A stretch of 64,000 nucleotides of DNA from NCBI RefSeq assembly GCF_032854445.1, contig NC_088304.1, positions 2,416,001-2,480,000 of the forward strand, given 5' to 3'. Position numbers and translations under genes: made by a program. The DNA is from Liolophura sinensis (taxonomy: Eukaryota > Mollusca > Polyplacophora > Chitonida > Chitonidae). The notes below the pieces were generated by a model that did no database searches, was not told the DNA's origin, and saw only the letters and a list, made by a program, of their open reading frames with translations. Shown one piece after another: positions 13,258 through 64,000 of the stretch (the first letter of the stretch is position 1; the number at the start of each line of letters is the position of its first letter).

Positions 13258-21282
<8,025 letters not shown>

Positions 21283-38112: not shown

Positions 38113-39541
38113 TCAGATGTGCTCTTGACAGGCTGGGCAAATTAGTGAAGAATTTTGGATTATAGTTGCTAGATGTGCTTTGAGCCCTGTTTTCCCTAGT
38201 GTCAGGCGTGATATGTTTTTGTCACCCTGCTTATTCATTAATTGGAACGAATTTAATTTTGTAATCGTTCCGTCCAATATTTTATAGTGCCACCGTCCAC
38301 GAGATTCTTTATCCCATTCCTCTTTCCACTGAGTGTTAATTTGGGTATTGATCAATGTGTATTTTTCAGTTTGGCTCAGGGAGACGTCTATATCTTGTTG
38401 ATGTTTTTGTAGGCTCGATTTGGCTGCCTGATCTGCAATTTCATTTCCTCGAATATTAACGTGCGTTAATTTTCTAACGTTAGTTAGCGAGATTATTTCT
38501 TGTAGGAGGTCTGGTCTGCTCTCAGATTTTGAGTTTTGGATTCAAATGAATCCACTGAGGGAGTCGCTTAGTATGCATACTCGGTTTGGTTTGTTCTCAA
38601 GAATCCATTGTAGTGCCATTGTAATTGCAACTAATTCACTAGTATAGACGGAGAGGTGGTTGGGTAGTTTATAGTTTTTAACTATGTTTAAGTCTGGTAT
38701 TGCAAATGATGATCCAGTGTGACCTTGCACAATTTTGGATCCGTATATATTTTTGGATGACCGTTGTAGTGTTTGTGGAAGTGTTCTAAGGCTTGAGGTT
38801 TGACATATACCGGGTTTTCCAGTTTTGAAATTTGGTCATGGAGTGCAGTGTCTGTTTGGGGAGTTTGCAATAACCACGGGGGTTGTTGTTGATATGCGTT
38901 TTCTTGTTGCTTTGGCAAGGCAATGTCATATTTGCAAAGTAGTCTGTTGATTTCATATCCTATTGGAGCTGAGTGTTTTGTCCATTTTTTTCCAGATATT
39001 CATATTCAGAATATGGGAGGATTAGGTTGTAACATGGATGTGTATTACCGTTAGCGCTTATTTTTCCTGCATATTTGAGCGTTAGTTATTCTTTTATGAG
39101 GTGAAGGGGTTTTTCAAGTGTTTCTGCTTGGAGACTGCAAAGCGAAGTGCCTTTGAAAGCTCCCTTTCCTACTTTTAAGGCAGAATATTGGATACTATCA
39201 ATTCGCTGTAGTAGAGTTTTGCACGGGGATTGATAGACTATCGCACCATAGTCTATTCTGGAGCGAATTAGACACTGGTACATTTTTATGAGTGTGGTTT
39301 TCTTGGCTCCCCAGCCTGAAATGTATCTCATTAGATTGAGATCGCGTTGGCACCTGATTGTGAGCTCATCAATATGATCTTTCCATGTTAATCTACTATC
39401 AAGAATCATACCTAGGTATTTTACTTTGTCTTTGAATTCAATTTTCTTTTTATCTAAGAAAAGTTCAATATTTACTTTTCTTCTGTTTGTCAAGACAATA
39501 CCTGTTGTTATTTTAGTGGGTGAGAATTCAAATCCCCATTA
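38113..39541 (-). mobile_element. 5'-truncated non-LTR retrotransposon: RT C-terminus, RNase H and zinc-knuckle-like end
   Basis: At 39541-39086 the minus strand reads the end of a reverse transcriptase: KVKYLGMILDSRLTWKDHI, then LIRSRIDYGAIVYQSP and LQRIDSIQYSALKV, the usual region after the RT palm. An RNase H domain follows in two frames: GHPKIYTD (38918-38745), then TGSSFAIPD, YTSELVAITMALQWI and CILSDSLSG (38730-38542). The final part (38355-38113) has TGLKAHLATI and CPACQEHI, the cysteine-bearing C-terminus common in such elements. At least two frameshifts and a stop break it, and there is no 5' half. It resembles I/Jockey-type elements with RNase H; the exact clade is uncertain. Confidence 0.85.
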
Positions 39542-43160: not shown

Positions 43161-43942
43161 ATCAGGGCAGTACACAAATCATTAATTGCATGATTTTATC
43201 CATTGTTTGTATTGGTTGAAGTCTCAAAGACAAATATGTTACGAAGAAAAGAAACGCCTTCAACTGGATGATCATAACAGTAGTTGTTTCATTTATTTGT
43301 ATGTGTAAAGGCCTGTATCACTTTGCCTCACTTTCTCAAGATGGAGATTCACAGCTTTGCAGTCTTCCGAGTTTTGATATTTACACCGTTTTGTCTGAAG
43401 TCGCATCTAAACCGTATATTACAATATGATAGGCCTACTGTATAGTGGTCCTTCATAGTTGATGATAGGATTTCATCCATGAGACATGCAATCTCCCGTT
43501 ATGTTGTTCACCGTATTCATGGTTCAGTTCACACTTTGATCTGGAACTGTTTCGTCACTGATGTCGGAACACAGCCTCGTAAATATCTCATCGGATGTCA
43601 CTTAGACATTTAACAATTTTTTCAGTCCACCAAGAGTGTTCTCCTTAGCTCATAGCTGGCTCTCAGTGGGTGTCACTTTCTGTTTATCAGTGGCATTCAG
43701 AATATCAGCCTGCAATGTTCAAATTTAAGACACCGGAGAGGTGTCACCTTAACATCCCTCTGGCGTAATGTACGTTGAAGAGAAAGGGAAGTAATTCAGA
43801 AAGACAAGGAGTTGGATCATCTAGTGTGCATATTTTAGCCCTGTTGGATTGGATTTTCTGACTGACGGAATGGCAAGTGGTTAAGAGACTCAGCGGTCAA
43901 CCGGCAATTATCAAATTTAAATGACTTTCCTTTGCACGGCTC

Positions 43943-44101
43943 CTTACATGGGTTAGAGGCCGTGTTGACGCACTGTCTGGTACGAGTTCGAATCCCTTAC
44001 ATGGGTTAGAGGCCGTGTTGACGCACTGTCTGGTACGAGTTCGAATCCCTTACATGGGTTAGAGGCCGTGTTGACGCACTGTCTGGTACGAGTTCGAATC
44101 C
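43943..44101. repeat. 53-bp tandem triplication inside the P2 TSP1 exon
   Basis: Three identical or nearly identical copies, each ending in GTCTGGTACGAGTTCGAATC on the plus strand. Two extra copies add 106 bases, shifting the frame by one, so the TSP1 cysteines beyond NPCK are read out of frame. Confidence 0.95.
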
Positions 44102-45040
44102 CGAAAGAGCATGCTGAGTAACCAGACCAGGTCTGCCACTGACCCTCGACACACTCTTGCCATTGGGTAAGGTCAACTTCCGGCAGACTTGCGCAGAGAA
44201 CAGTTGGATTCCTATGAACAAAGTATCCAGGAAACACACCAGTTATTACACATGCAAAACACCAATGCAAAACAACATTTGTTTTTTTTTGTTTTTTGAG
44301 AGGGACTTGAATAGAAAATAACATTACGCTATTAGCAGGCATCTCACTCATGTAGAATTAAGCTTGTGGCATTGAGCTGTTGTTATTGTTTATATATTTT
44401 CCAAGATATAGTAATATAGTAATAATAGATGTGTCGAAACAGAGATTGGCATACCAGCCGTCAACCAGTAAGGACGTTACAAATCAATACTTGCCAGGGT
44501 AATTTACAAAACGACAGACGGATGCATGGACAGACGGAAGAACGGACGCACCTTCGAAGGAACGAAGGAAAAGACGTACGTGCGAATGGACGGAGGACTA
44601 GACGTACGTATGCATGTCACTCCAAAATCCTATCATCCTTCGGGTACGTTGATAATGAGAGTTTGACTATTGATATTCTCTTTATTGCTTCAAAAACATA
44701 CACTGTATCATGACGTAAACATGCTCTCACCATGATGCCGCCGCAGTACTGCCAAAGTGGTGCTAAGCCATAATTCACAAACAGCGAGCTGTATATTTGC
44801 CGTTAGAGTTAGGCTCCAAGGCTATCAAAACAAAATGTGAAGTATTTCTTTATTGTTTTGGGATTGGTGTCTGACGCCTCAACAACAGATTCTGGGTCAT
44901 TTTCATGTTATGTCAGGTCTATTTTCTGATGTCACATAGCAGCCCTCCGCACATAGCTGCGCGGTTGCATGGACCGGTGTGAACAGGATTTGAACCTAAT
45001 GTTCTCTGGGATGGGGCCGTAGTGCAATGTGCGCGCTCAA

Positions 45041-47050: not shown

Positions 47051-47499
47051 TCGGTTAGCGAATCAAAATATTCGGGCACCGGCTCTGTACAGTGTATTCT
47101 TGAGAGCTATTACATATCTCGTTAAATATGTTTTTTTTTTTTGCGGGTTAGACTGAAAGCGCTTTACGACGCAAAGTCTCGCCCAGCGACAAATGGTTTT
47201 TGGTGTATGCTCTGCATGGCTGGTTCTCAGAAAATTGTGTTTTATGGGACACCATGATTCAATTCTGCAAACCGGAATGCATATATTAGTTTCAATCCAA
47301 ACCAAATCCGGGTGGGTAAGGTCTTCCGTGTTCTTACCTTGGGTTATACACCTCTGTAAAGACGTCAGCCTGTATTTCACCAATATTTCCATTCTCGCAA
47401 ATGATTTTAGCCAGACTTGATTTGCGTATTTCATCAAGTTGTCCTAAAATGAAAACAACGACAGTAACTGATTAATTTACAGACCTTCATTAAATATGT

Positions 47500-47592: not shown

Positions 47593-48939
47593 TCCTACTG
47601 CAGTACTGGCCGCCGACACATAAGGGAAATATGAGCTTTATACTTACAATCTTCTAAATGTAAATGTTTGAACGTCAAACTTTTGGTAGAACTAAAACCA
47701 TACACGTTATATGGTGTGGCTAGTGAGTCCCAAAATATTCAAATTTTCTGCAACACCTACGACACCAAATATGACACTCTTCCTTTTCAGCGTATGTATA
47801 CAGACACCTTGTTGACATTTTTATTTATTTATTTCTTTATTTATTTTTGGCTTTTGGCAAATATTTTACTAAGAGCCAAGTGGAAAAGCAAGAATCGATA
47901 TTTATACTCTACCACACTGATCATAAACACTAGCATATGGCCCTCCAAGAATAAAAAATCGGTGCTATTTAGAAAGAATAGTACTTTTAAGCTAACTTAC
48001 CGATTTTGAATTTTGCTGCAGCATCGTTGGTTTCATAGTAAAAACTATCAGCGTGTTTCAGTATCCAGAACTGTCTTCCAATCAGACAAGCTCCTGTTGG
48101 TCCCACAGCGCGACCCTCTAGCGGTGTCTCAGTGACGATTCCTGTCCACAAGTCGATGTCATCAGGGTGGCTAACAACACATGGACAGACAGAGTTATTC
48201 CCCTTGAAATGTAATTTGCCATCATTAAATACAATGTTTCAAAAATTTTCTTTAGCGTTACAATGTTTACGATGTTTTAGAATCATTTACTACCCACGGG
48301 TATGGCAATGGAATTGGCACCATCCTTAAATATCGACCATACTGCCTTCGCTGAGGAGGCGAACCTAACGTTTTTGATATTGCCGTCTTATTTTCTCACA
48401 TAGACAACCGAAGCAGCACGTGCTAGGCCACAAATGAATCCGACTCATCTTCCCGAAGCGTATTTTAGCGACAACACGACAGCCGCCAGTATAAGCATAT
48501 CAATAAGTATATTTTTAGTATTAACTAAAACACAAATTAAATAAAACTGATTGATATGAACATGAGACGCATCATTAAAATGGTATTAGGGGTTTGGTTT
48601 TGGTATCATTAATCCCTTGTGGGTTTGTAAAGCTTGAAATTCTTAATCCAGTTAACAAGCGATAATGGAGTCCTACTTTAACCTGGCGACCAAACCTCAT
48701 GTGGGATGATCATATTTTGACAGGCTTGTGATTTGTGCACAGTTTAGTTGTGACACGCTGAGTTATACTGATATAAATATTTGTTTTGTTTTTTTAATTG
48801 TATATGACGTCCGTCCCCACAATGCAGATCTTGACTCTTCCAAGCTATCTACTTTCTATGCAACCTGGAAGAAAATTTCCGAATGTGACAACTGGTATGA
48901 GGAAGTAACTGCATACCATTCCAGAACACAGTCCTAATA

Positions 48940-49062: not shown

Positions 49063-50012
49063 TAATAGAACTGTTTGGAGTCTAGCGTTCCTAATACAGA
49101 AGAAAAATGTATTCAAAAGTCACCATAATTGCTGAAAAATTTGCTTACCTGTTTTAAAACAATGTCTGCATTGTCGAGCAGAATGGCGTCCCGTTGGCTG
49201 TGGGGTCTTGTAGCAGAAGATCTCCGTGGGCGCTTGGGGTCACTTTAAGTAAGCCTGAAATACAGATCCTCATCACTGTGAGACGGTTTAATTAAAAAAA
49301 AGTCTTATGGAACTCTTTGGCCAATTGTGTTGCGAATATGTTTATTCCAACGGCTACTATGGTTTGAAATACTTAAATTTTGTCCTTGAAATAATTAAAC
49401 CCATCGTTGTTCATCAGCCAAGCATGTCATTTATCCCGAAAGCTCATTGGTTACCGTTGTAGACATTCATCATTTCAGTGTTGGATTTTTGTAACAGAAT
49501 TATAAGAGCACTCCATCTTAGTTTGTAACTGAAACACCTCTCTCAGTTTTATACGTATGGAGCTACTTGATTGGTGTTTATCACTGTAAACTACTCGAGA
49601 ACTTTTGACTTCTACTTTATGGCAGAAAATTGGAGTAACGAGACATCCACCGCTTTTAGCCAGATACCTGACAAAATGTCCTGACTTAAAGTTGCAGTCG
49701 AACTCGCGAGAGCTGGATTGAAGCCTGTGGTATCGGTGAAAAAACAAAGGGTTTGGCTGACTTTATTAGCAAGGGTGGACGTCATTTTTAAGATTTAAGT
49801 GCAATGTTGTTCTGGTTAAATTTTATTTTCGAGATTTTGAAATGGTTTCGTAGTTCTTTTTATTTCACAATTTAATTCCCCAACAACATCAGCTGAAATG
49901 GACAGAAATGTTGCTAAAAGCAGGCTAGAGATAGTCACTTGAAGAAACGGACACCTGTTTACATGCAACAGGCCAACAAACGTTCACAGTAAGAGCGACT
50001 GTACTCTCGAAA

Positions 50013-50232: not shown

Positions 50233-53200
50233 CGTAGTAAACACGGACTATATAAGCAGGCAGCGTCGAAACAAGCTAAGAGGTTACCATTAATGCCAAG
50301 TCTAATGGTGCGCATGGTCGTAACGTCACTTCCGTAGATTGCTGAACCGTCAATGAAATGAGTGACTTGGTCAAGCTGTTGACGGAAACCTGGGGGAAAG
50401 TACGAATAGTGTTAAAACCCGTAAAAGCAGCCAGTGTCTATTTTCACCAAACTGCGTAAGCCAATTCTTTGTGTCAACTTGTTTCTTGTAAATCACGACA
50501 CTTTATACGGCGCTATAACCTAGACAAGGCCATTTACGAAAAACGTTAGGAGAAATCTGATTAGGGAATATGCTTTTAAATATTTTAATATTTGAGAAAG
50601 TTGCCCGGGTTTATGGTTGTACAGTGCGAACCACAACTCTGTACCAGGCACCAGACAAAGTTCCTATCTCCTAAAAAATAATGGTATTAGACGATGACGT
50701 ACCCAGCTGGCAGTCCAGATTGGGGGTAGGCGCTGCGCGTACAAAGTTCATGCATGTCCTGTGGAACTGCGAGAAGAATTGGTCCTCTACAGACACTTCT
50801 GTCGGGCGACATCCGAGTCTGGCGATATAGAAATGGATTGGGCGCAACAATTATGCGAGCATAGCGAATACTATGGCAGCTATTTTACTAAAATTGTCAT
50901 TTTAGACGTTCAACATTCTTCATTTCTCAGGTTTTTCATACTTCGCTAAAATGTGCATTATGTAAAACTTAAAGTAAAGTACTCCAGAAAGCCTTTACTC
51001 ATTTGTGTTTACTATGTATTTTGGGTTTATCCGAGTCTTTTTATGGTTGTTATCATGATTACTGCTGGTATATTAGAATCGTCTCCCATTGACTAATATA
51101 TACGACTGAGGAACCCAAGTTTTAACGCTATGGTTGATGACAGCAGGAAGAATCCAAGCTTGTTTTACGCACGGTACAAAGAATTTAGCTTCCGCTGTCA
51201 CTTCCGATTCTGTGGCCATTTTCGCGAAAACAGTTCTTGTAGTTTTTCTTTTGTTTGTCTAGTTTACAGCGCCATAAGGTGACATGAGTTACAAGTAAAA
51301 TTAGATTACCAAATTTTGTGAAAATGTCGCCAGTTCCGGAAGCGTTTCTTTTAACCTAAAACAAAGCTTCTAATAACTCACCACGTGTAGGTATGGTTCC
51401 AATTGTGGTGCAGTTGTGTTAAGGAAATAAAGACTTAAAAAATCATCATCGTCAGGTACATTGTTTATACTTTCTTAGTTCTTTGGTAGGTTCTGTTGAG
51501 CGTTGATTGAATGGTTGTCGATTGGCACAGTAATTTCTGCTTGGACGTCTAGATACACTACTGTACTTCTCTGAAAATACCTCCACTGGTGTTATTTTTG
51601 TTTGACCTTTCTTGAACAGTGTGTTTGATATTGTAGTCCTAAGATGGAATTAACGTACTTGTTCATACTGTTGGATCATCGATGACGTCACACGGGAGTT
51701 TCTACCTTAACGTTGGCAACTGACAAAACTATTCCGTGGCTCATTGTGTAATCTGTACTTTTTTATATAATATAGCTATTCAGTATAAACTAAATACATA
51801 GTTTAGATAAAAAGGAGTTAAGCTCGTGACATCAATGGTTCATAGCCCCCAACTTATAATATAAATGTCTGAATGCATCTATAGCTTCTGTTCAACAAAG
51901 GTTATTGAAAAAGCCTGAACATATTTCAGATACATTTTCAGAGATGTCTCTAAAAGCTATGACTTCATGTAATGTTGTATATTCATTTAAAACATAAGGT
52001 ATAAACAAATGGAACTTATATGATTGAAACAATTGATTAAATGAGTTTTCCATATAAACTTTATATACATCAGTTTGTTTAAAGCCACTGGTATCAACTT
52101 TGCCATCAGCAATGCAACACGACAAAGCGCTGCCATTGTTTCCTGAAAAAATTAAATACATAAATATTTACTTACTGGCCTCTGTTTGTTTGCGGACAAC
52201 GCAGGAATATTTGACCGATTCATAGTTTCGAGCAACCGGGCCCCTTGTAAGGAGCTGGAGGTGATAAGACACCATGGAGCTAAAAGGGCCGAAAGTTGAG
52301 TTTGACCGATTCCGAAATGTTTAGGTATTACGGCACATTGAAACTGTTATATTTAAAGGCTAGATATATTCCGATTACTTTTCCAGAAAGAGCTGTTTGT
52401 ACCTAAGAGCTATACTTTTCATTTTTGATGCAAAAATCTTCTTCAATGCCTGTCACCTGGGTTAAATTCGCATTGTTTTCACCTCCAGTATATTGCCAAT
52501 GTGGCGTAAAGCCATAATCGTACATCCACCTCCAATATTCTATTCACGTGACCAAAAGTATGCTGATGATTGGCTCAGAGCAGCTATAACATTATCGCAA
52601 AACTATAAATACGATGGTGGCTATGATCATGGATAGGGGAAACCGAGCATGTAGGGCCAGGGGGAAACCATGCAACGCACTAAAACCAGACACCTTACAA
52701 ATCCTACTCGCGCAATGCAGCAACCTAGACAAAAATGAATTTAATCCATCACCGTCAATGTTAAATGGTTATGAGAAAAGTGATGTAAGATCAGTGTTCC
52801 AACAGTGGGATTTGAATTTTTTTAGTCAATGAACTTATGTTGAGAAAATGTTATAAAACAATTTGACACACCCGATATCATATGTTAAGGTTCTTCCATC
52901 AGAACCGGAAAGCCTTGTCGAACACTCTTCTGCAGTCTTGGACAAATAACATATCATGTCAAACCTTCCGTCTAATGACTGTATACATGGCATACTCCAT
53001 ACAGCGCATGTGCTCGCGATATACCACTGTCATGCACCACTAAACAAGCTTGAGATTTAGAAGTTGTGCGACGCACGTAGGTTTGTGTAGCCCTAGCGCC
53101 ATCACTGGTGTCCTTGCGCGGACACCTTGTGAAGTTGTTTTACGAGTTGATTAGAATTATGTCCATACCTTAGATAAAGAGAATGCATGTGTGTAAAACT

Positions 53201-53640: not shown

Positions 53641-54965
53641 AGTTCTTACTCTTTTTCTATAACAAACTGGAATCTGATTGTCAATAAAACATTCAGCCAA
53701 TCAAGAAAGTGGAAAGCTGCTGACAAGACATACCCTTGGAGAAAGCATTTCTCGTGACGTCATGAGTGATGAACTGTCCGAACTCCATGGTCATGTGATT
53801 TATATGCGGATGGAGATTGGCTAATGTGCTCTTTTTGTGAATATTTGTACTGATCACTCATGGCAACGGAAGGGGCGTTCCCGACCTGGATTCATTTCTC
53901 AGGGACCCGACACCTAAAAGTAATATAAGGCATTTAGTAATTATTTGGATTTCAAATATTTTCTAGCAACATTAGAAGGACACCTAGCAACTAAACAGGA
54001 AATCGTTCCACTTCGATGCAGCAGTGAACCAGAAAAACAAATAAATCTTACCTGAATATTAAGTACAATTACTAAAGAACGTAAACGTGAAAATTTAGAG
54101 TGATGCCATTTATTTTATTTGTTTATTTGTTATTTTTGATATGTTTTAGCAAAAGACAAAAGTACTAGTAGTGTCAAAAGCAGAATTAATTATCAAACAA
54201 TATCAAACTGTCTTGAAACAATGGCGATCCTGCGTAAATCAGGTGAAGTAAGCAGTGCCCATGAACTCGGAATTGTCGTTTACTATATCTGACTTACTAT
54301 TGATTTCTTACAGCCAGTTTGATTACCCCTCTCTGAGGGGTAATGAGGGTAATGGAGGGGTCAAGTCTTAGAGGCAAGCAGTTTCAAAACACAAATACGC
54401 GAAAAGCTAACTTCACTCGCAAGCGCCTGCCCGTGTTACATGTACATGTATGTAATATATGATTTTTTGTTGTTTTTTTAAATAAGGCAAGTAACGAAGA
54501 CCTTCGGCACACGAACAGTAATGTTACAAAGGGAAATACGTCACATAACAATGGCAGGTGCCTATGTTTCACATCTAAAAGAATACGGAAGTAAGAATTC
54601 GTTTTGGGGAAGGTTTGATTTGGACAAATCAGTATTGTCAGCGACTGCAGCATCTGACCTCAGTTTGACGCGGAACAAGAGCTATACACCCACCATCGCC
54701 ATACTCCGGGGGTAAGAATCTCTCGTAGGGCGTGTTGGCTTTTCGCCACAAAGGGTTCTGAAGGTTGTTACACGACCCATCTATCGCCCTGTATGTGTAA
54801 GTGACGTCACACTCAATCATGGCTCGGAATGGACAGGGCAGCTGGACACAGACCCCCATTACAACTTATGGAAAATTAATGGGGGGTCCGAGGCCAGCTG
54901 GGCGCTTATTTTACGCATGGTCCTCAGAGTCACGGAGTCTGGCTGTCGTAGATTTAAACTGGCGA

Positions 54966-56139: not shown

Positions 56140-56824
56140 AATTAATTATAATAATGCTTTATTTCTCTTACCAAGGTTCATATAAAAAGGTTTTACAATA
56201 GAAATAAGAGACCATGTTAAAACAGCCCAGGGATTGGTCTAGGGCGTATACAAATGCCACTGCATAGGACTACAGGTAGACGGTGTTATCAGGCTTGCAT
56301 TCCACGAACTCTTTAGCAGGAAATGAAAGTAGGTTTTCGATTCCAACTTTAGTTAGGCTGGAAGTGCTTTTTATTAATATGTTATCACAGTTATTCACAT
56401 GATGTGTCCGCCCACTATAAAACCTCAAAGTGTGACAAAGACAAACTCTACAGATGTTAGGTGTCTAATACTTAAAAACAACTAACAATATATACACATG
56501 TAAGTTAAACAATAAAACTGCAGCTTGTTTAACCAGTAGAGCTACACAACGCATATGGCAAAGAATTCTTGAATAAGTATGGCAAGTTTAATATTTTGTC
56601 TTCGATACCTGCATAAGAATTATTAGGTAAATTTTGAATCGTGTGATCCTTCATTCAGAAGGTTTCACATGTTTCTCTATAAATATACACTTCTTATTCT
56701 CTGACAAGACTGGAGCTGGCTTTCTCGAAAACGGCTCCAGTCATGGCTATCTCACGCGCCTGCGCATTAGACACAAAGTGTGGACCGAATACATCCTTCC
56801 GTCTTTTTAAATCTTGTCTCTGGT

Positions 56825-58290
56825 CTGAAGAAAAGAATAGATATGCCACAGCTCTTTAAATATCTGTAATAAACGGAAAAGAGGGAGGGCCAAGATGGGC
56901 AGTTCAAGGGAGGTAATCGGCTGGTGTAAGCAGACCTTACTGTTAAAATGAGTTTCATATGTGGTACATATTCATGACAAGGGTCTCCATTTTTTGCATT
57001 ACGAATGCAAGCTTAGCATCTACGTTACCATAATGCACGCTATCACTCACAGCTGTCGAGAAAATGAGTTTTATGACAGTTTAAAATGTAGATTTTTTTG
57101 CAAATATGGAAAACGTCAGTTAAAGTGAAAGACAGCACCTGACTAATGTTTATGTCCACGGAAAGACTACCAATCGAAGTATCTTAAACCGGCATTAATT
57201 TTTTTTTTTTTTAGATTTTTTTAACCCAGTAAAAGTTTAGTGAAACTTAATCTTGATACAGCTTCAGCACATCTCCATTACTGAGAGCAAGGTGACTCTC
57301 GCTCTCTAACGTTGAAGGCATTTTCCGTATAATAGTTTAAGCAGTAGAATGTGGCAGATGAAAGTTGTGGACTAGGGTGATGAAGGCCCAAGTCATAAAT
57401 ATAATTTTTCTGGAAATTGGACATTCTGGAAGAATATTCCTTCCACTGCTTGAACTGTTGATGCACTAGGCGTATTATATCATTAACAAGGAGCTTCAAC
57501 GACTCTGTTTAAATAGGCATTCGACTGTCTCTGGATTTTATGCTTCAGTTTTGTATCACTGGCTTCTAAAATGAAAGCAGTGCTGACCTAGTTATCGCGG
57601 ACCTCAAAGAAACCACAAGGCGTTTCAACAATTTTACTGTATTTTATAAAAGAAAATAGAAAAAACATCCCTTGTATGCGAGAAAGACGAAGGAGTAAAA
57701 TTTAAGTTCTTCAGCTGTAATTAATTCAGAGAGAGAAATATGTCATAAGATTTAATCAATCTTAGTCGTTGTCAGGTGAGATCCCGTCCTCTCATTCCCA
57801 TAAACCTTCGGCTTCCCTAATGAATTTTGCACTGACCCTGATATTTGTTATTTAGAAACTGCTTACTAAACGCTAAAATGAACGACAAAAACATGTATTT
57901 GGGGAGATGGGTGCGGTTTGGACCGAGACGGTATGCTACTGTCTGGCATAATTTGTGATACGGTCTTTGAATATATTAGGGCTTGTAAATGAACTGATTT
58001 TACGTCTGTGGGGGTCCGTAAACGATACAGACCTGCCCCACAACACTTTATGAAATGGCCCTTTGGCTACTGTACTTCAGCGTTTACCCGTGACCAATTA
58101 CCAGCTGTCACTCTTTTGTTGGTGATCCAGGTTTACCCTCTACACCTTTTACTATATCCTTTCTCCAAGTAAATCTTGACGTTGACATTTATGTCAAATC
58201 TTGACCAATGTTTACCGAATATTTATTAAAAATCGTCGTATATTTAGATCAAAAATAGATCTCATTTGTTCTTTTTATTAAAATCCTTAC
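56825..58290. other. Region between the Gln-rich exon and P2 exon 2; no exon resolved
   Basis: If the two belong to one transcript this is an intron. Two weak exon-like minus-strand stretches were seen. One follows an acceptor at about 57715 (TTACAG, then LKNLNFTPSSFSHTRDVF, stop near 57638). The other is at about 57507-57278 (SLKLLVNDIIRLVHQQFKQW, stop TAA). Either could be a terminal exon of the Gln-rich gene, but neither has homology I recognise. A degenerate R390-like phrase (CCAATTACCAGCTGTCAC) lies near 58092. Confidence 0.35.
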
Positions 58291-61200
58291 CTTCTTGGAA
58301 TGCTGTTTCACGAAAGCCGCCAGTGGAACAGACGAATCCGTTTGTGGTGGGAATCTTTGCTGCAGTGGGAACCCGCGCCGAGGCTGCACTGCCTGTTGTG
58401 GATATGGAGTCACTGGGGGGCGGGGTAACACTTGTCCGGACGGGGCCGCCTCAATTTCGATAGCTCGATTTACAGGTGACGTCATTGATTCGACTCCGTG
58501 AGGATTGTTTGTTGCCAGTTCCTCACTATGTTGCGTAGTTTGCGGCGCTCCTGTATCAGTTACCATTTGTCTGAAACGCTGGTCTGCTTGGCGGATTCCT
58601 TGTATCACTGCAGGCCTGAGCTGCCTAAGCCCTTGTCTTTGTTGTGATCCACGACCAGTACCATATTCGACGCCCTGACCACTCTGAGCCTTTGACATGA
58701 AACCCTGTTCACGATGAGAGATTCTCAGGGGTCCCTGCCTGGACTGAGTGGCCATGCGAGATCTTTGACCGTGTTGAATGGCTCTCTTGATTGTCCGTTT
58801 ACGTTGTTTTTCCGTCTGAAATTGCGGTCCACTTTGTGCGTCTGTTTGAGATCCCTGTCCACGTTGTGTGTATGTCTGAGATCCCTGCCCGCGTTGTGTG
58901 TCTGTCTGAGATCTATGTCCACTTTGTGCGTCTGTTTGAGATCCCTGTCCACGCTGTGTGTCTGTCTGAGATACCTGTAAAAGTTGAGTTCCCTCAAATC
59001 CTTGTGCACGTTGAGTTATTTTTCCACCTTGCGGAGTAAACTGAATTCCTGGTGGAGGATGACCAACTGACTGCGTTATTTGTCCTTGTGCAGGCTGACC
59101 AGCTGACTCAACTGGTTGTCCTTGTGTAGGTTGACCAACTGACTCAGTTATTTGTCCCAGCGCAGGTTGACCAATTGACTCTGTTATTTGTCCTTGTGCA
59201 GGCTGACCAGCAGACTCAGTTATTTGTCGTTGTGCAGGCCGGCCAGCTAACTCAGTTATTTGTTCTTGTGTAGGTTGACCAGCTGACTCCGTTATTTGTC
59301 CTCGTGCAGGTTGAACAAGAGACTCAGTTGAATGTGCTTGTACTGGCTGACCAATTGACTGAGTCGTTTGTCCATGTGCAGGCTGACCAGCTGACTCCGT
59401 TATTTGTCCTTGTGCAGGCTGATCAGCTGACTCAGTCGTTTGTCCTTGTGCAGGTTGACCGCCTACATCAGTTATTAGTCCACCTTGCGGAGCGAGCTCA
59501 TTTGCTGAACCAAGTTGACTACTGGACTTAGTTATTTGTCCATTTTGGGGAACAAGATCAATTCCTTGTGCACGTTGACTACCTGACGCAGTTATTTGCC
59601 CACCTTGGGGAACAAGATCAATTCCTTGTGCACGTTGACTACCTGACGCAGTTATTTGCCCACCTTGGGGAACAAGATCAATTCCTTGTGCACGTTGACT
59701 ACCTGACGCAGTTATTTGTCCACCTTGCGAAGCAAACTTAATTCCTGGTGCACTTTTTAGGGCCTGGATAAGATTCGTGAATATGGGAAAGCCAAATGGT
59801 GGGAGAGGTTCAAGCAGGACCTCTACGGCTTGAGTGGGTAGATTAAATCCCTGTCTTGATTGTGACGCTTCCCTTGTACTTTGTGTAGTATTTGGTTGAA
59901 CGTCACGCTGTCCTGTAGAACTTTGTTCACGCTGTACTACAAGAACCGTCTCTTCACGTCCACGCTGTTTCGCAAAGTTTGAGTTTGTACCAGTATCGCG
60001 ACGTCCATCAAAGATTGTACCTAGCTCGTGTGGATTCATTTGTGTGCCTTGTCTGTTTTGTCTTGCGAGGTCTGTGCCTTGCTCACTTTGTCGGACAGGA
60101 CCTATGCTTTGGGCACGCCTTCTGGGAATACCAGCACCTTGTTCAGGCTGTCCAGGAGGACCAGTATTTTGTTCAGGCGGCCTAGCAAAACGTGTGCCTT
60201 GTTCAGGCTGTCCAACAAAACCTGTACCTTGTTCACGTTGTGTCAGAAAAGCAGCGCCTTGTTCAGGCTGTCTCATGAAACGTGTGCTTTGTTCAGGTTG
60301 TTTAGAAAAACCTATGCCTTGTGCCAGTGCCACAGCCATATCTAGCCGTTGTTCACGTTGTGTGGCCGAGTTTGCGCGGGACCTAATTCCAATACTATTA
60401 CGTGCCCCTATTTCAGGCTGCGCGTCAGCTGGGTAACTTTTCACTTCAGATCGACCTGACCCTGACCCGCGATATGCCCCCTGACCTGTTCTTCCATTTC
60501 CGAAAGCTGTCGCAGTTCCCTGATCACGTTGACTAGTGGTCGTACTTCCATGATAGAAAGCCACTTTATTCTTCGGTGTGTGCTTAGCGGCTAATGCATA
60601 CCACTGTCCCTGTTGGCTTCCTCTATCAACGGCAAGTCCAGGTTTCTCAGTTCCTCGACCAGCCCTGACGTCAGATACCTGCCCAGTTTGACCAACGCCA
60701 GAAGTAGCACTCCCAAGGGTTTGTGACTTAGTCCCTGGTATACTTCTACCCACAAGTTCAATCGTCATACCAGGCTTTGCCACAAATTCAATCCTCTGTC
60801 CTGTACTTGAAGACAACGTTAACACCTGTCCTGATCTTGCTCTGAAATCAAACTTTCCTTCGCGTGATTTCACTGGTGGTTCACCCACGTTCGGTTGCCG
60901 ATTTTGCCAACCACGTGTCTCGCCTGTCTGCTTTTTAAAAGCTGCGGCGTTTCCTCTCTGAGACAAAAGCTGTGCTCTCCATTGCTGAGTCGCGGCCCTT
61001 CCTCTCTGATTCTGAGTCAACGGCTCTTGTCCCCACTGTTGAGTCGCGCCGTTTCCTCTCTGATTCTGAGTCAAGGACTCTTGTCCTCCCTGCTTAGCAG
61101 CTGCTGAAGGATTATTTCCAGACTCAAAATGGGACCTAGGATGAGCATAGCCTGCGATACCAGTTCGAAGCAAGGGATCGCCTACAAAGCTGTTCTGATT

Positions 61201-61410
61201 GACTGTTGCGGTTCCTGATTGAGGTTGTGAGGTCTGCTCTCTTGTCTGTTGATACTGATGTTGTTGTTGTGTATCATAAAGCTGTACACCATGCCATCCA
61301 CCAGGAAATCCGAATCTCCAATAGTGTGCATCGTACAACCATCCTAAGGATCCCGGAGCCCACAGGCAGAAGAAAAACACCACACCAAAAACGTACGTAA
61401 GGGTCCGCAT
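58291..61410 (-). CDS. Large first coding exon of a secreted, Gln/Gly-rich repetitive protein (1040 codons, unrecognised family)
   Basis: The start is MRTLTYVFGVVFFFCLWAPG, a signal peptide of about 24 residues ending near SLG-W. It is preferred because an acceptor (TTTTGTTTCAG) lies four bases before this ATG, as in P1, so the in-frame ATG further upstream would be intronic. The mature part has no cysteine. Order: aromatic segment YDAHYWRFGFPGGWHG (to about 45); Gln-rich units with TQNQRG (100-170); a less repetitive part with GQVLTLSSSTGQRIEF (200-240); about eight PEQGTxFxxQ units (350-450); three 20-residue units around GGQITASGSQRAQG (557-617); about a dozen 12-residue GQPAQGQITESA units (645-790); about six 10-residue RGQGSQTDTQ units (805-870); and a Pro/Gln tail. 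After QHSKK a donor (AAG/GTAAGG) ends the exon in phase 0, so more protein follows. Composition suggests an extracellular structural matrix protein. It may be the N-terminus of the P2 peroxidase or a separate gene. Confidence 0.75.
59558..59740. repeat. 60-bp coding repeat, three nearly identical copies in the Gln-rich exon
   Basis: Each unit encodes 20 residues around QITASGSQRAQG. Near-identity at all codon positions indicates recent unequal exchange or slippage while the frame was kept. Confidence 0.9.
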
Positions 61411-61414
61411 TATT

Positions 61415-64000
61415 CTGAAACAAAACGCACATTTTAAATGAATGTGGAGACAGTGTCGGGACATAATTCATCGGCAGTACTAGAGCTATATCAGAAAACC
61501 ACATTTGAATTGGTAAATGATTGACGTTACATAGACAGTATTACAGCCAATCACTAAAGCACAGCTCATTAAATGAATGATTGATATCTATCTAACTCGC
61601 CCTCCATCGTTTTGACACCAAATCAGAAAACAACATTTGAATGTAGCCCATGAAGGATTATGGCTGATCGACAAATCCGTAGTACATTTGAATGTAGCCT
61701 ATATAAAATTATGGTTGATCGTAACATCGGTAGTACTAGCGCCAAACCAGATTTAAACGAGTAAGGGGTTAGGTTAAACCCAACATGGACAGTATCTACA
61801 GCTACATCCTGAATCCACAGCTGGAGAGAGCGGCCGTGTCGGACTGGTTAAGGTGTCGATCGATAGGTCACACGAGGTACGACCTGTGACAGGGAATTTG
61901 TTGATAGCCCTGCTGTCAGTGGTCCTGAGGGATCTGTCACAATAAGGGTCGATAACTCTGCTGTGACCGTTGGTGCAGTCTAACGTTTATTGCAGATCAC
62001 TGGTCTTCCACCAATATTGTGTGCATATCTGTACGTCGGGTATTCGTCAGCAACTTCCCAAAGGCCTGTGGTTTATCCCAGCCACTCTGCACTTTGAACG
62101 CCAACGAATAAGCGCAAACTTCTTGAGTATGGCTTTAAAAATATTCAAATAAATAAATAAAATCTCATTTGAACACGGTGTATTAACAGTCATATCGTAA
62201 AATCACATTTGGAAACAATTCCGTTCATTATCCGTTCATTAAAGGGCTTAAGTTCATAAATGTGTTACAGTATTTCTGCTGTAAATCTTGACTTGTGTTC
62301 ATTGGACATTTGATCAAATCGTTCTGCTTGCGATTAAATTGACGGGTTTGTGATAAAGTTGTTGTGCTTGTGATAAAATTGTTGGACTTGGGACCATATC
62401 GCCGTATTCTCGATCAAATTAAAGGGTTTGTGATCAAACTAATGGGCTTGTGATCCAACTGAAGGGCTTGTGATTTAATTGACGGGCTTGTGATCTAATA
62501 TAGAAAATTATTTGCATGAAAGTGATCAAAGACAAAACTGGTGTTGGCAGGGTCTAACTTGCGGTAAGGGGCCAGGAATTATGCGTCTGTTAGTGGCAGG
62601 AGGTATTGTGAATAAAAGGAAGAGCAGTGTAGACTGGAAACAACCAGTTGAGTATGAGGCAAGGAATTATGTATTTGTTACTGGCAGGAGGTTTTGTGAA
62701 GTAAAGGAAGAACAGTGTAGACTGGAAACAACAAGTATGAGGTTGTTCGTTTAATGGACCCAAATACACATCTTAGTTAGTCGTTGCATTATTGTGTTGC
62801 AAGGAAACGCACTTGACATTGTGTTTCGACCACTTAACCCATTCATCAATTTTTCGTACTATTTTTAATTTTTAATTATTATGTTTTGACACAATAGAGA
62901 CTCGTATTACGTTAAGGTATATTTATCTTGAGACTTTTTTCCCTATGAACAGGTTTTGTGTATAGCATCCCACGGTAACTCATGAGAAGGTCTAAGGATT
63001 GTCGTAGCTTTCCCCCCCTGGGCTCTGAGCTTACCCCTGCTCTCGTCACAATGTTGGCCGCCGTCGTATAAGTGTAATATTCTTGAGTAGGGCGTAAAAT
63101 CAAGTAAATAAATAAATGCAGTATAACATTCCGTTTTGTGTGTAGAGTTCTTTGGCCCTGAATTTCTTGTGAACAGTAGGGTCAACTTCTGCTTCTGTGT
63201 TAGATATACTGATGTAAATACCGTCACCCCATTTCCCTCAAGTCTTTTGCCTCGTACATTGTCTAACATTGATTCGGTGATGGTAAATGGGTACTGGAAA
63301 ACCGGGTGTCTTTCAGCAGAGGGTACAACCTATGTAGCTTATTATGTTAACATTTGTACTTTTTTGTCAAAGCTTTTGGCTTGTACATTGTCTAACACTG
63401 CTTGCGTCACTGTTCATTCTTATCAAACATGGGTTTCTTTCTAAACAAACTCTAACCGAGAGTTTAGAATTAGAACATTTATACTCTTTCATCGTGGATT
63501 TTGGCTCGTGCCGAGTGTTCATTAGCTAACATTAATTGCCTCACTGTGCACTTGTATCGGATAAGCCGGGTGTCTTTCTACTGAGCGTATAACGTAATGG
63601 TGACAACGGCCTGTCCTGGAGAGAGTACCGCTATATGTTTAGGCTGGACAAGTTATACCTATTACATCATACATACAACGAACTTTGCAGAGGTCAAAAC
63701 TCTCTTGTTACAATCGGGTGATCGAGCGTCGTGACCTAATCTCGTGACGTCATTAGTTGTCATAATCACCTGACTAAATCTAGTGACTTAACATCGTGGT
63801 ATAATACAGAAAATAAATTATTGTACTATTATTTCCCATTATACGCAATAATGGGAAAATCTCGGCGAATAAAGTAATTCGGTTGTAAGCTGAGTGGTTT
63901 ACCGGTGTCGTTTATTCCTGCCTTTGTAGGCCTAATAACGTTATGTTGACAAACTGGTAATTTATCACATAGCTATGGTCGTTAACATACTGATACAGAG
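61415..64000. other. Upstream flank of the Gln-rich exon: degenerate repeats, no gene
   Basis: Contains a two-copy repeat (TTGAATGTAGCC, 61633-61750), a degenerate tRNA-like SINE head (61829-61925, GTCGGACTGGTTAAGGTGTC) with an AAAT-type 3' end at 62115-62160, a 20-bp array GGGCTTGTGATCAAATTGAC (62338-62500), a two-copy repeat of about 88 bases (62570-62745), a family A SINE 3' fragment (62975-63118) and a three-copy diverged repeat of about 150 bases (GTACATTGTCTAACA, 63180-63600). The non-coding first exon expected for the Gln-rich gene should lie here but could not be placed. Confidence 0.5.

Follow-up and report, generated by a model that had tools for sequence, protein, structure and literature searches.

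A predicted secreted, Gln-rich repeat protein encoded upstream of a broken peroxidase gene in the chiton Liolophura sinensis

Gln-rich proteins are among the shell matrix proteins described from Haliotis, namely QRP, the Q-rich Tri_33510/CLC_62 and the Q/G/P-rich idb_20008, the last of which is described as secreted and as carrying tandem repeats of 5-16 residues (PMC6003135). From chitons, 31 silk-like structural proteins have been reported in Acanthopleura granulata (PMC7850002), as have radular teeth matrix protein 1 (RTMP1) of Cryptochiton, a secreted repetitive matrix protein without known relatives, and peroxidasin-like proteins in the radular teeth (PMC6351634). Here we analyze a 64-kb stretch of the genome of the chiton Liolophura sinensis (the window; coordinates are window positions unless a contig is named), whose minus strand carries a 1040-codon, Gln-rich coding exon upstream of an animal haem peroxidase gene, peroxidase B. 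We propose, with about even confidence, that this exon encodes a secreted, basic, disordered repeat protein belonging to a family of which two members were found, most likely an extracellular matrix or cuticle polymer.

The predicted protein resembles the Haliotis Gln-rich shell proteins in being Gln-rich, repeat-rich and apparently disordered, and we observe in it the features of that class (Gln above 10%, repeats, and disorder, the last read from a low-confidence model of residues 1-360). Nevertheless, Tri_33510/CLC_62 and idb_20008, as described there, have Gln in blocks of up to 10 or in a nearly unbroken stretch of 24, whereas the longest Gln run here is 3; moreover, Haliotis belongs to a different molluscan class, and the likeness is one of description (PMC6003135). 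With silk-like proteins it shares a repetitive, low-complexity sequence, a signal-like start and candidacy as a matrix protein, but the SilkSlider definition asks for Gly to make up 25% or more of an 80-residue window, together with a signal peptide called by SignalP and no transmembrane segment (PMC4944945), and Gly here reaches at most 20% in any 80 residues. RTMP1 is likewise a repetitive chiton protein without known relatives, but it is described as Gly/Ser-rich with a Trp/Phe-rich part, and is set apart from the Gln-rich protein by that description (PMC6351634). We regard the protein as ordinary in kind and somewhat unusual in context.

The published assembly (632 scaffolds, 609,495,693 bases, N50 37,343,639) appeared under the name Liolophura japonica (PMC11068029), which was changed to L. 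sinensis in a correction (PMC12441733). Our genome searches covered 609,464,459 bases in 632 contigs.

The Gln-rich exon and its repeats

The open frame runs on the minus strand from an ATG at 61410 to a donor, AAG/GTAAGG (slashes mark splice junctions), at 58291, with no stop in 1040 codons, and if left unspliced it stays open to a TGA at 58249. The remaining five frames across 58291-61410 contain 32 to 69 stops each, and the longest open frame is 255 codons in 200 Markov sequences of exon-like composition and 186 codons in 30 simulated 64-kb sequences of window composition. Both the open frame and the coding periodicity (GC at codon positions 1/2/3 of 0.64/0.53/0.32) lie far beyond chance, and we regard the stretch as a real gene exon. 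The features of the exon are:

58291..61410, minus strand: Gln-rich coding exon, 1040 codons, with a signal-peptide-like start and no Cys after residue 15
61411..61431, minus strand: splice acceptor just 5' of the start codon, TTTTGTTTCAG/AATA-ATG, scoring 4.4, at the 97th percentile among 3401 AGs
60724..60855, minus strand: 44-residue core (residues 186-229), FxxxSxxGQVxTxSxxxGQxIExxxxxGxTIxL, common to a relative on C8 (L037); low-confidence hairpin in the AlphaFold2 model
60136..60322, minus strand: 10-residue PEQ-type repeat array
59443..59753, minus strand: 20-residue repeat; three copies near-identical, others diverged
59047..59481, minus strand: 12-residue QPAQGQITES-type repeat, about 12 units
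58801..58978, minus strand: 10-residue SQTD-type repeat array
58285..58293, minus strand: strong phase-0 donor, AAG/GTAAGG (log-odds 11.5)
58222..58251, minus strand: in-exon stop TGA (58251-58249) followed by AATAAA (58227-58222), a possible unspliced 3' end

Donors were scored as log-odds with a weight matrix, and only two on the minus strand across the 64 kb score 11.4 or more. The AATAAA, about 22 nt past the in-exon TGA, could be chance, since 78 such motifs occur on the minus strand of the window.

The frame is composed of 15.6% Gln, on average one every six or seven residues, and 12.7% Gly. Its sole Cys, residue 15, falls within the signal-like start, whose hydrophobicity (Kyte-Doolittle 2.62, versus 1.66 for the top window in the remainder) and confident AlphaFold2 helix (residues 2-17; mean predicted local distance difference test, pLDDT, of 86 and 75 in the first two ten-residue blocks) suggest that the protein is probably secreted. 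The original prediction of an intact frame closed by a strong donor, with a signal-like start and a Cys-free mature part, is borne out. The mature part has a pI of 10.5 and a grand average of hydropathy of -0.93. In the AlphaFold2 model of residues 1-360, 331 of 360 residues fall below pLDDT 50 and a weak, low-confidence hairpin occurs at residues 196-210; composition and this low-confidence model together point to a basic, intrinsically disordered protein. The quality of the model (mean pLDDT 36, predicted template modelling score 0.19) is too low to support a fold search. No Pfam family matches the exon at E 1, hence no An_peroxidase (PF03098) domain, and the N-terminal 360 residues have no PDB match up to E 1. 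A peptide-hormone precursor was also considered and rejected, the protein having 7 dibasic places that do not follow the spacing of the repeats.

Most of the frame falls outside tandem arrays. The four repeat types predicted earlier, of about 10, 12, 12 and 20 residues, needed amendment: those of 12 and 20 residues stand, but the others are two 10-residue arrays, and an additional 18-residue pair is present. The three core copies of the 20-residue repeat, correctly predicted as almost identical 60-bp copies, encode identical protein and differ in DNA at third positions only, while neighbouring copies are more diverged. The ratio of non-synonymous to synonymous differences per site (pN/pS) between units is 0.93 (12-residue), 0.82 (PEQ) and 1.14 (six 20-residue windows) in the larger sets, and 0.54 (five SQTD units), 0.34 (18-residue pair) and 0 (three core 20-residue copies) in the smaller ones. 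Most repeats therefore look free to drift provided that the frame remains open. Repeat expansion, taken earlier as a sign of selection, has indeed changed the exon, but selection on the exact residues is seen only in part, namely in the smaller sets.

A relative on C8

When the whole exon was searched against the genome (counts refer to the best 44 of 532 candidates), at least 58 matches were obtained, namely itself and 57 weak others, all within residues 624-861, which comprise the 12-residue array and its surroundings. Residues 861-1040, used as sole query, matched only themselves in the genome. Residues 1-360 as sole query gave three matches: themselves, C8:9065698-9066135 (E 0.0077) and a minisatellite frame (E 0.69). 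The C8 locus, L037, encodes a 305-residue protein in a single open exon that starts directly after an acceptor, TTTTTGCAG/AATG, and ends in its own TGA, with no donor scoring above 4.9. It has a hydrophobic start, 12.5% Ser and 10.5% Gln.

The similarity between the two proteins is significant outside the repeats. BLASTP of the exon against L037 gives E 3e-9, and the alignment, which covers residues 43-314 of the Gln-rich protein, scores 132, compared with a best score of 97 in 1000 global shuffles, 101 in 1000 shuffles within 30-residue windows, and 67 for the reversed sequence (0/1000 for both kinds of shuffle). Pfam gives no match close to significance for either protein. Our best reading is that they belong to a small family that Pfam does not cover, of which these two members were found in the chiton genome. 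The original prediction of a protein with no recognizable family holds as far as Pfam is concerned, but not for the genome itself, where this one relative is present.

That the coding frame has been kept is supported in two ways. The first is the divergence between the Gln-rich protein and L037: over the 44 codons of the core, with pN 0.34 and pS 0.62, there are 17, 13 and 24 differences at the three codon positions, which shows that the protein was constrained after the two split. The second is the absence of lesions. There are 169 codons in the frame one C-to-T change away from a stop, yet no stop or frame shift occurs in 3120 nt; at 0.01 substitutions per site and with an assumed indel rate, a neutral frame of equal length and codon content would escape every lesion with a probability of 0.017.

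Around L037 we found no peroxidase exon: 12 peroxidase exon queries gave nothing better than E 0.61 in its 3.4 kb and the following 6 kb, whereas 9 of the 12 (one being the second exon of peroxidase B itself) matched the B region below 0.01.

Two further likenesses were set aside. The 20-residue repeat may descend from the 44-residue core, but the evidence is suggestive only: no shuffle (0/2000) or control window (0/52) reached the score against the L037 core, but 36/2000 shuffles and 8/52 control windows did so against the core of the Gln-rich protein. A two-sequence profile gave 17 PDB matches, all to ubiquitin or ubiquitin-derived proteins (best whole-sequence E 1.7e-5); in 16 of the 17 no single stretch passed alone, and the one that passed had an E of 0.018. 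We take these matches to have arisen by chance, from a short hairpin whose resemblance was added up over the repeated copies of ubiquitin.

Peroxidase B, its sisters and the leader-exon slot

Downstream of the Gln-rich exon, on the same strand, lie the exons of peroxidase B (exon names were coined in this analysis):

56701..56824, minus strand: MID (second) exon; strong phase-1 acceptor; GT donor of the sisters absent
54694..54841, minus strand: CPF exon; acceptor at the place used in A and C not recognized, only a weak phase-0 acceptor
53734..53913, minus strand: distal-His exon, with an in-frame TGA
50703..50818, minus strand: CPI exon, open
50288..50389, minus strand: DAS exon, open
49149..49254, minus strand: GLLK exon, 106 nt versus 111 in A and C, frame shift
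48001..48170, minus strand: SHP exon, 95.5% identical to gene C
47349..47441, minus strand: tail exon, open over the match
43910..44210, minus strand: TSP1-like exon, frame broken by a perfect 53-bp x3 tandem

Gene B is broken in the assembly, because its distal-His exon has an in-frame TGA (CGA in gene A), its GLLK exon is shortened, the 53-bp tandem (43942-44102) shifts the frame of its TSP1-like exon, and the MID donor and CPF acceptor are lost. Moreover, its catalytic exon was not found between the GLLK exon and 48170, the 571-bp catalytic stretch common to A and C being without match. Exon order is the same in the sister genes A (21.3 to 13.3 kb in the window) and C (C10:2,493 to 2,484 kb, beyond the window), whose exons are open where compared. 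Thus, of the secreted peroxidases said earlier to lie alongside, neighbours A and C are open in the compared exons, but the gene directly downstream is broken. Among 206 compared residues, 29 are unique to B, 18 to A and 22 to C; the slightly higher count for B hints that its decay is not brand new, although synonymous divergence (dS) among the three genes is saturated, so that this decay is not datable.

The SHP exon of B (48170-48001) matches gene C at 95.5% over 179 bp, the match stopping at or near the exon edges, compared with about 75% between A and C, and looks like the product of gene conversion or a recent exon copy. Genes C (L009, C10:2484012 region) and A (window 13303-13485) end in a thrombospondin-1-like exon, which in C matches Pfam TSP_1 with E 0.0011, below the curated cut-off. 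Genome-wide, at least 82 matches to animal haem peroxidase exons were found (counts from the best 81 of 170 candidates), several of them in clusters on C1, C3, C6, C10 and C11, indicating a large peroxidase family in L. sinensis. A 150-residue frame at 39086-39538 (minus strand) resembles by eye the tail of a non-LTR (long terminal repeat) reverse transcriptase, with no Pfam match up to E 0.1.

The Gln-rich exon occupies the leader (first coding) exon slot of B. Like the tandem-array peroxidases it has this slot, this strand and the acceptor-ATG layout of A, C and L015; unlike them it shows no significant sequence likeness, another donor phase and no catalytic part. An AG/AATG start, with the ATG one base past the acceptor, occurs in 3 of the 7 sister leader exons read (A, C and L015), while those of L012, L013, L014 and L017 also follow an acceptor but lack the ATG at this place; L037 also has AG/AATG, and the Gln-rich exon has AG/AATAATG.

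We scanned for ATGs that open a frame of 45 codons or more, lead into a hydrophobic core and have an AG no more than 12 nt away. In the approximately 11.7 kb upstream of the MID exon of B, three starts were found, of which only that of the Gln-rich exon has the AG; the control stretches of A (2.0 kb) and C (2.9 kb) returned their own leader exons and nothing more. In parts of nine other loci, the scan recovered the leader exon of L015 and plausible short ones in L016 and L018, but no AG-bearing start in L011 to L014; the start in L017 belongs to its MID exon and not to its leader exon, and L020 gave one candidate start. A related signature, with [CT]AG within 7 nt, occurs 4 times on the minus strand and twice on the other strand in the 64 kb. 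The acceptor-ATG layout is therefore informative, but not proof.

Sister leader exons vary greatly in length, from candidates of about 45 codons (L016, L018) through about 95-99 codons (A, C) to an open frame of 171 (L017), and that of L013 is a Pro-rich repeat. Donor phase was read in six of the seven sister leader exons: five (A, C, L012, L013 and L014) are phase 1, and L015, with two overlapping sites, is ambiguous. The MID acceptors read are phase 1 as well, whereas the strong donor of the Gln-rich exon is phase 0. Joined to MID, this donor gives five codons and then a stop. A weaker phase-1 donor at 58527 (score 5.5, no weaker than those taken for L014, 4.8, and L015, 5.0) would bring MID in frame, with a stop two codons beyond its lost donor. 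Whichever of the three possible 3' ends is used, the protein keeps residues 1 to about 961 and stops short of a catalytic peroxidase. A direct splice from the strong donor to CPF (phase 0 to 0) is possible but was rejected, the acceptor scoring -2.6 (66th percentile of the 3401 minus-strand AGs) and the next exon having a stop.

The tail of the Gln-rich protein shows no significant likeness to the ends of the sister leader exons (best L013, 36/500 shuffles), and a likeness seen by eye between one tail helix and the L013 leader-exon end was not borne out by the shuffle test. This test is uninformative, since sister pairs fail it too: for 12 of the 21, the score observed was equalled or exceeded by more than 50 shuffles out of 200.

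Function and origin

If expressed, as we infer, the Gln-rich protein would be about 1045-1053 residues long and exported by its predicted signal peptide, with its low-complexity repeats keeping the chain unfolded. The polymer might be held together by hydrogen bonding of Gln, Ser and Thr, perhaps with transglutaminase links through Gln and the 25 scattered Lys residues, which fit the composition better than Tyr coupling, as Tyr is rare and Gln is everywhere. Cross-linking of the repeats by the neighbouring peroxidases, suggested in the original prediction, finds no support in this composition: there are 13 Tyr in 1040 residues, and 10 of these precede residue 330. The repeats thus offer little for Tyr coupling, which could tie the N-terminal end at most.

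Several observations weigh against this proposal. The larger arrays diverge nearly without bias against amino-acid change, and present sequence constraint there is therefore weak. The contrast in lesions between the peroxidase remains (2 in about 1060 nt, the TSP1 exon and its lesion excluded) and the Gln-rich frame (0 in 3120 nt) reaches only P = 0.064. In addition, with so strong a donor at least one more exon is to be expected, and downstream only peroxidase remnants were recognized. Finally, function deduced from composition alone is a weak inference.

The alternatives discussed below concern partly the origin and partly the fate of the exon, and their probabilities overlap with that of the matrix polymer; a leader-exon origin is treated here among them. 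The one that survives best, which we consider possible although on the unlikely side, is that the exon is a separate gene without any former tie to B, brought upstream of it by chance, and that B lost its own leader exon; this is a claim on origin only, compatible with a matrix function. It is consistent with L037, which ends in a stop of its own and near which no peroxidase exon was found, with the phase mismatch to MID, with the in-exon stop followed by AATAAA, and with the four of seven sister leaders lacking AG/AATG, which make that layout no constant of the family. Nevertheless, the slot, the strand and the single acceptor-ATG-signal start in the stretch speak for a link with B, and the unlikeness to sister leader exons says little, given how often sisters fail the same test.

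The Gln-rich exon may instead derive from the leader exon of copy B in the tandem peroxidase array, the enzyme-coding remainder of which then degenerated. In this gene birth by enzyme loss, which we put forward tentatively and as rather unlikely, the leader exon of B would first have grown by repeat expansion into a secreted polymer of about a thousand residues; decay of the catalytic part would then have left it as a structural protein in its own right, the C8 relative being an earlier or relocated product of the same kind.

We find it doubtful, a little more so than gene birth, that the whole of peroxidase B is a pseudogene and the Gln-rich exon its not-yet-broken first exon, on the way out. 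The recognized downstream exons do belong to a broken gene, the larger arrays have near-neutral pN/pS, and the 53-bp x3 lesion is young, its copies being perfect. Against this, the frame has kept clear of stops and shifts despite its many codons one change from a stop, a relative kept open elsewhere shows the value of the protein outside a peroxidase gene, and the slight excess of residues unique to B hints at a decay that is not brand new.

It is improbable that the exon is the N-terminal part of a functional fusion gene, in which a secreted peroxidase would bear a very large Gln-rich tail and so combine enzyme and substrate in one chain, and that the assembled copy is a damaged allele or a misassembly. 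Such a fusion would fit the shared strand and slot, the sole acceptor-ATG-signal start upstream of MID, the variable length of sister leader exons and the Pro-rich repeat of L013, and the assembly was reportedly built from 14X HiFi reads at a heterozygosity of 1.24% (PMC11068029). However, it would have to explain the in-frame TGA, the 5-nt shortening, the 53-bp triplication, the catalytic exon not found, and the missing MID donor and usual CPF acceptor, all in a 64-kb window without ambiguous bases (N). The phase-0 donor also disagrees with the phase-1 leader exons and MID acceptors, the in-phase donor at 58527 scores just 5.5, and no peroxidase exon was found near L037.

A chance frame through a minisatellite is very unlikely given L037, since several tandem arrays in multiples of three, the weak matches confined to residues 624-861 and the openness of L038 over hundreds of codons are outweighed by the start layout, the donor, the coding periodicity, the relative and the large part of the frame outside arrays. 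L038 (C12:28147507 region) is a long minisatellite, unrelated to the Gln-rich exon and open in several frames on both strands for up to 466 codons, a reminder that long open frames alone can be repeats.

Returning to the matrix polymer, mollusc matrix proteins are often orphans of unknown origin, whereas this Gln-rich orphan has a readable context, with open and broken sister peroxidases on its own strand and one relative elsewhere. If the leader-exon origin is true, the locus would document a concrete route from an enzyme gene to a secreted structural protein; if not, it would add a further lineage-specific Gln-rich secreted protein, a candidate for proteomics of the chiton shell, girdle or radula.

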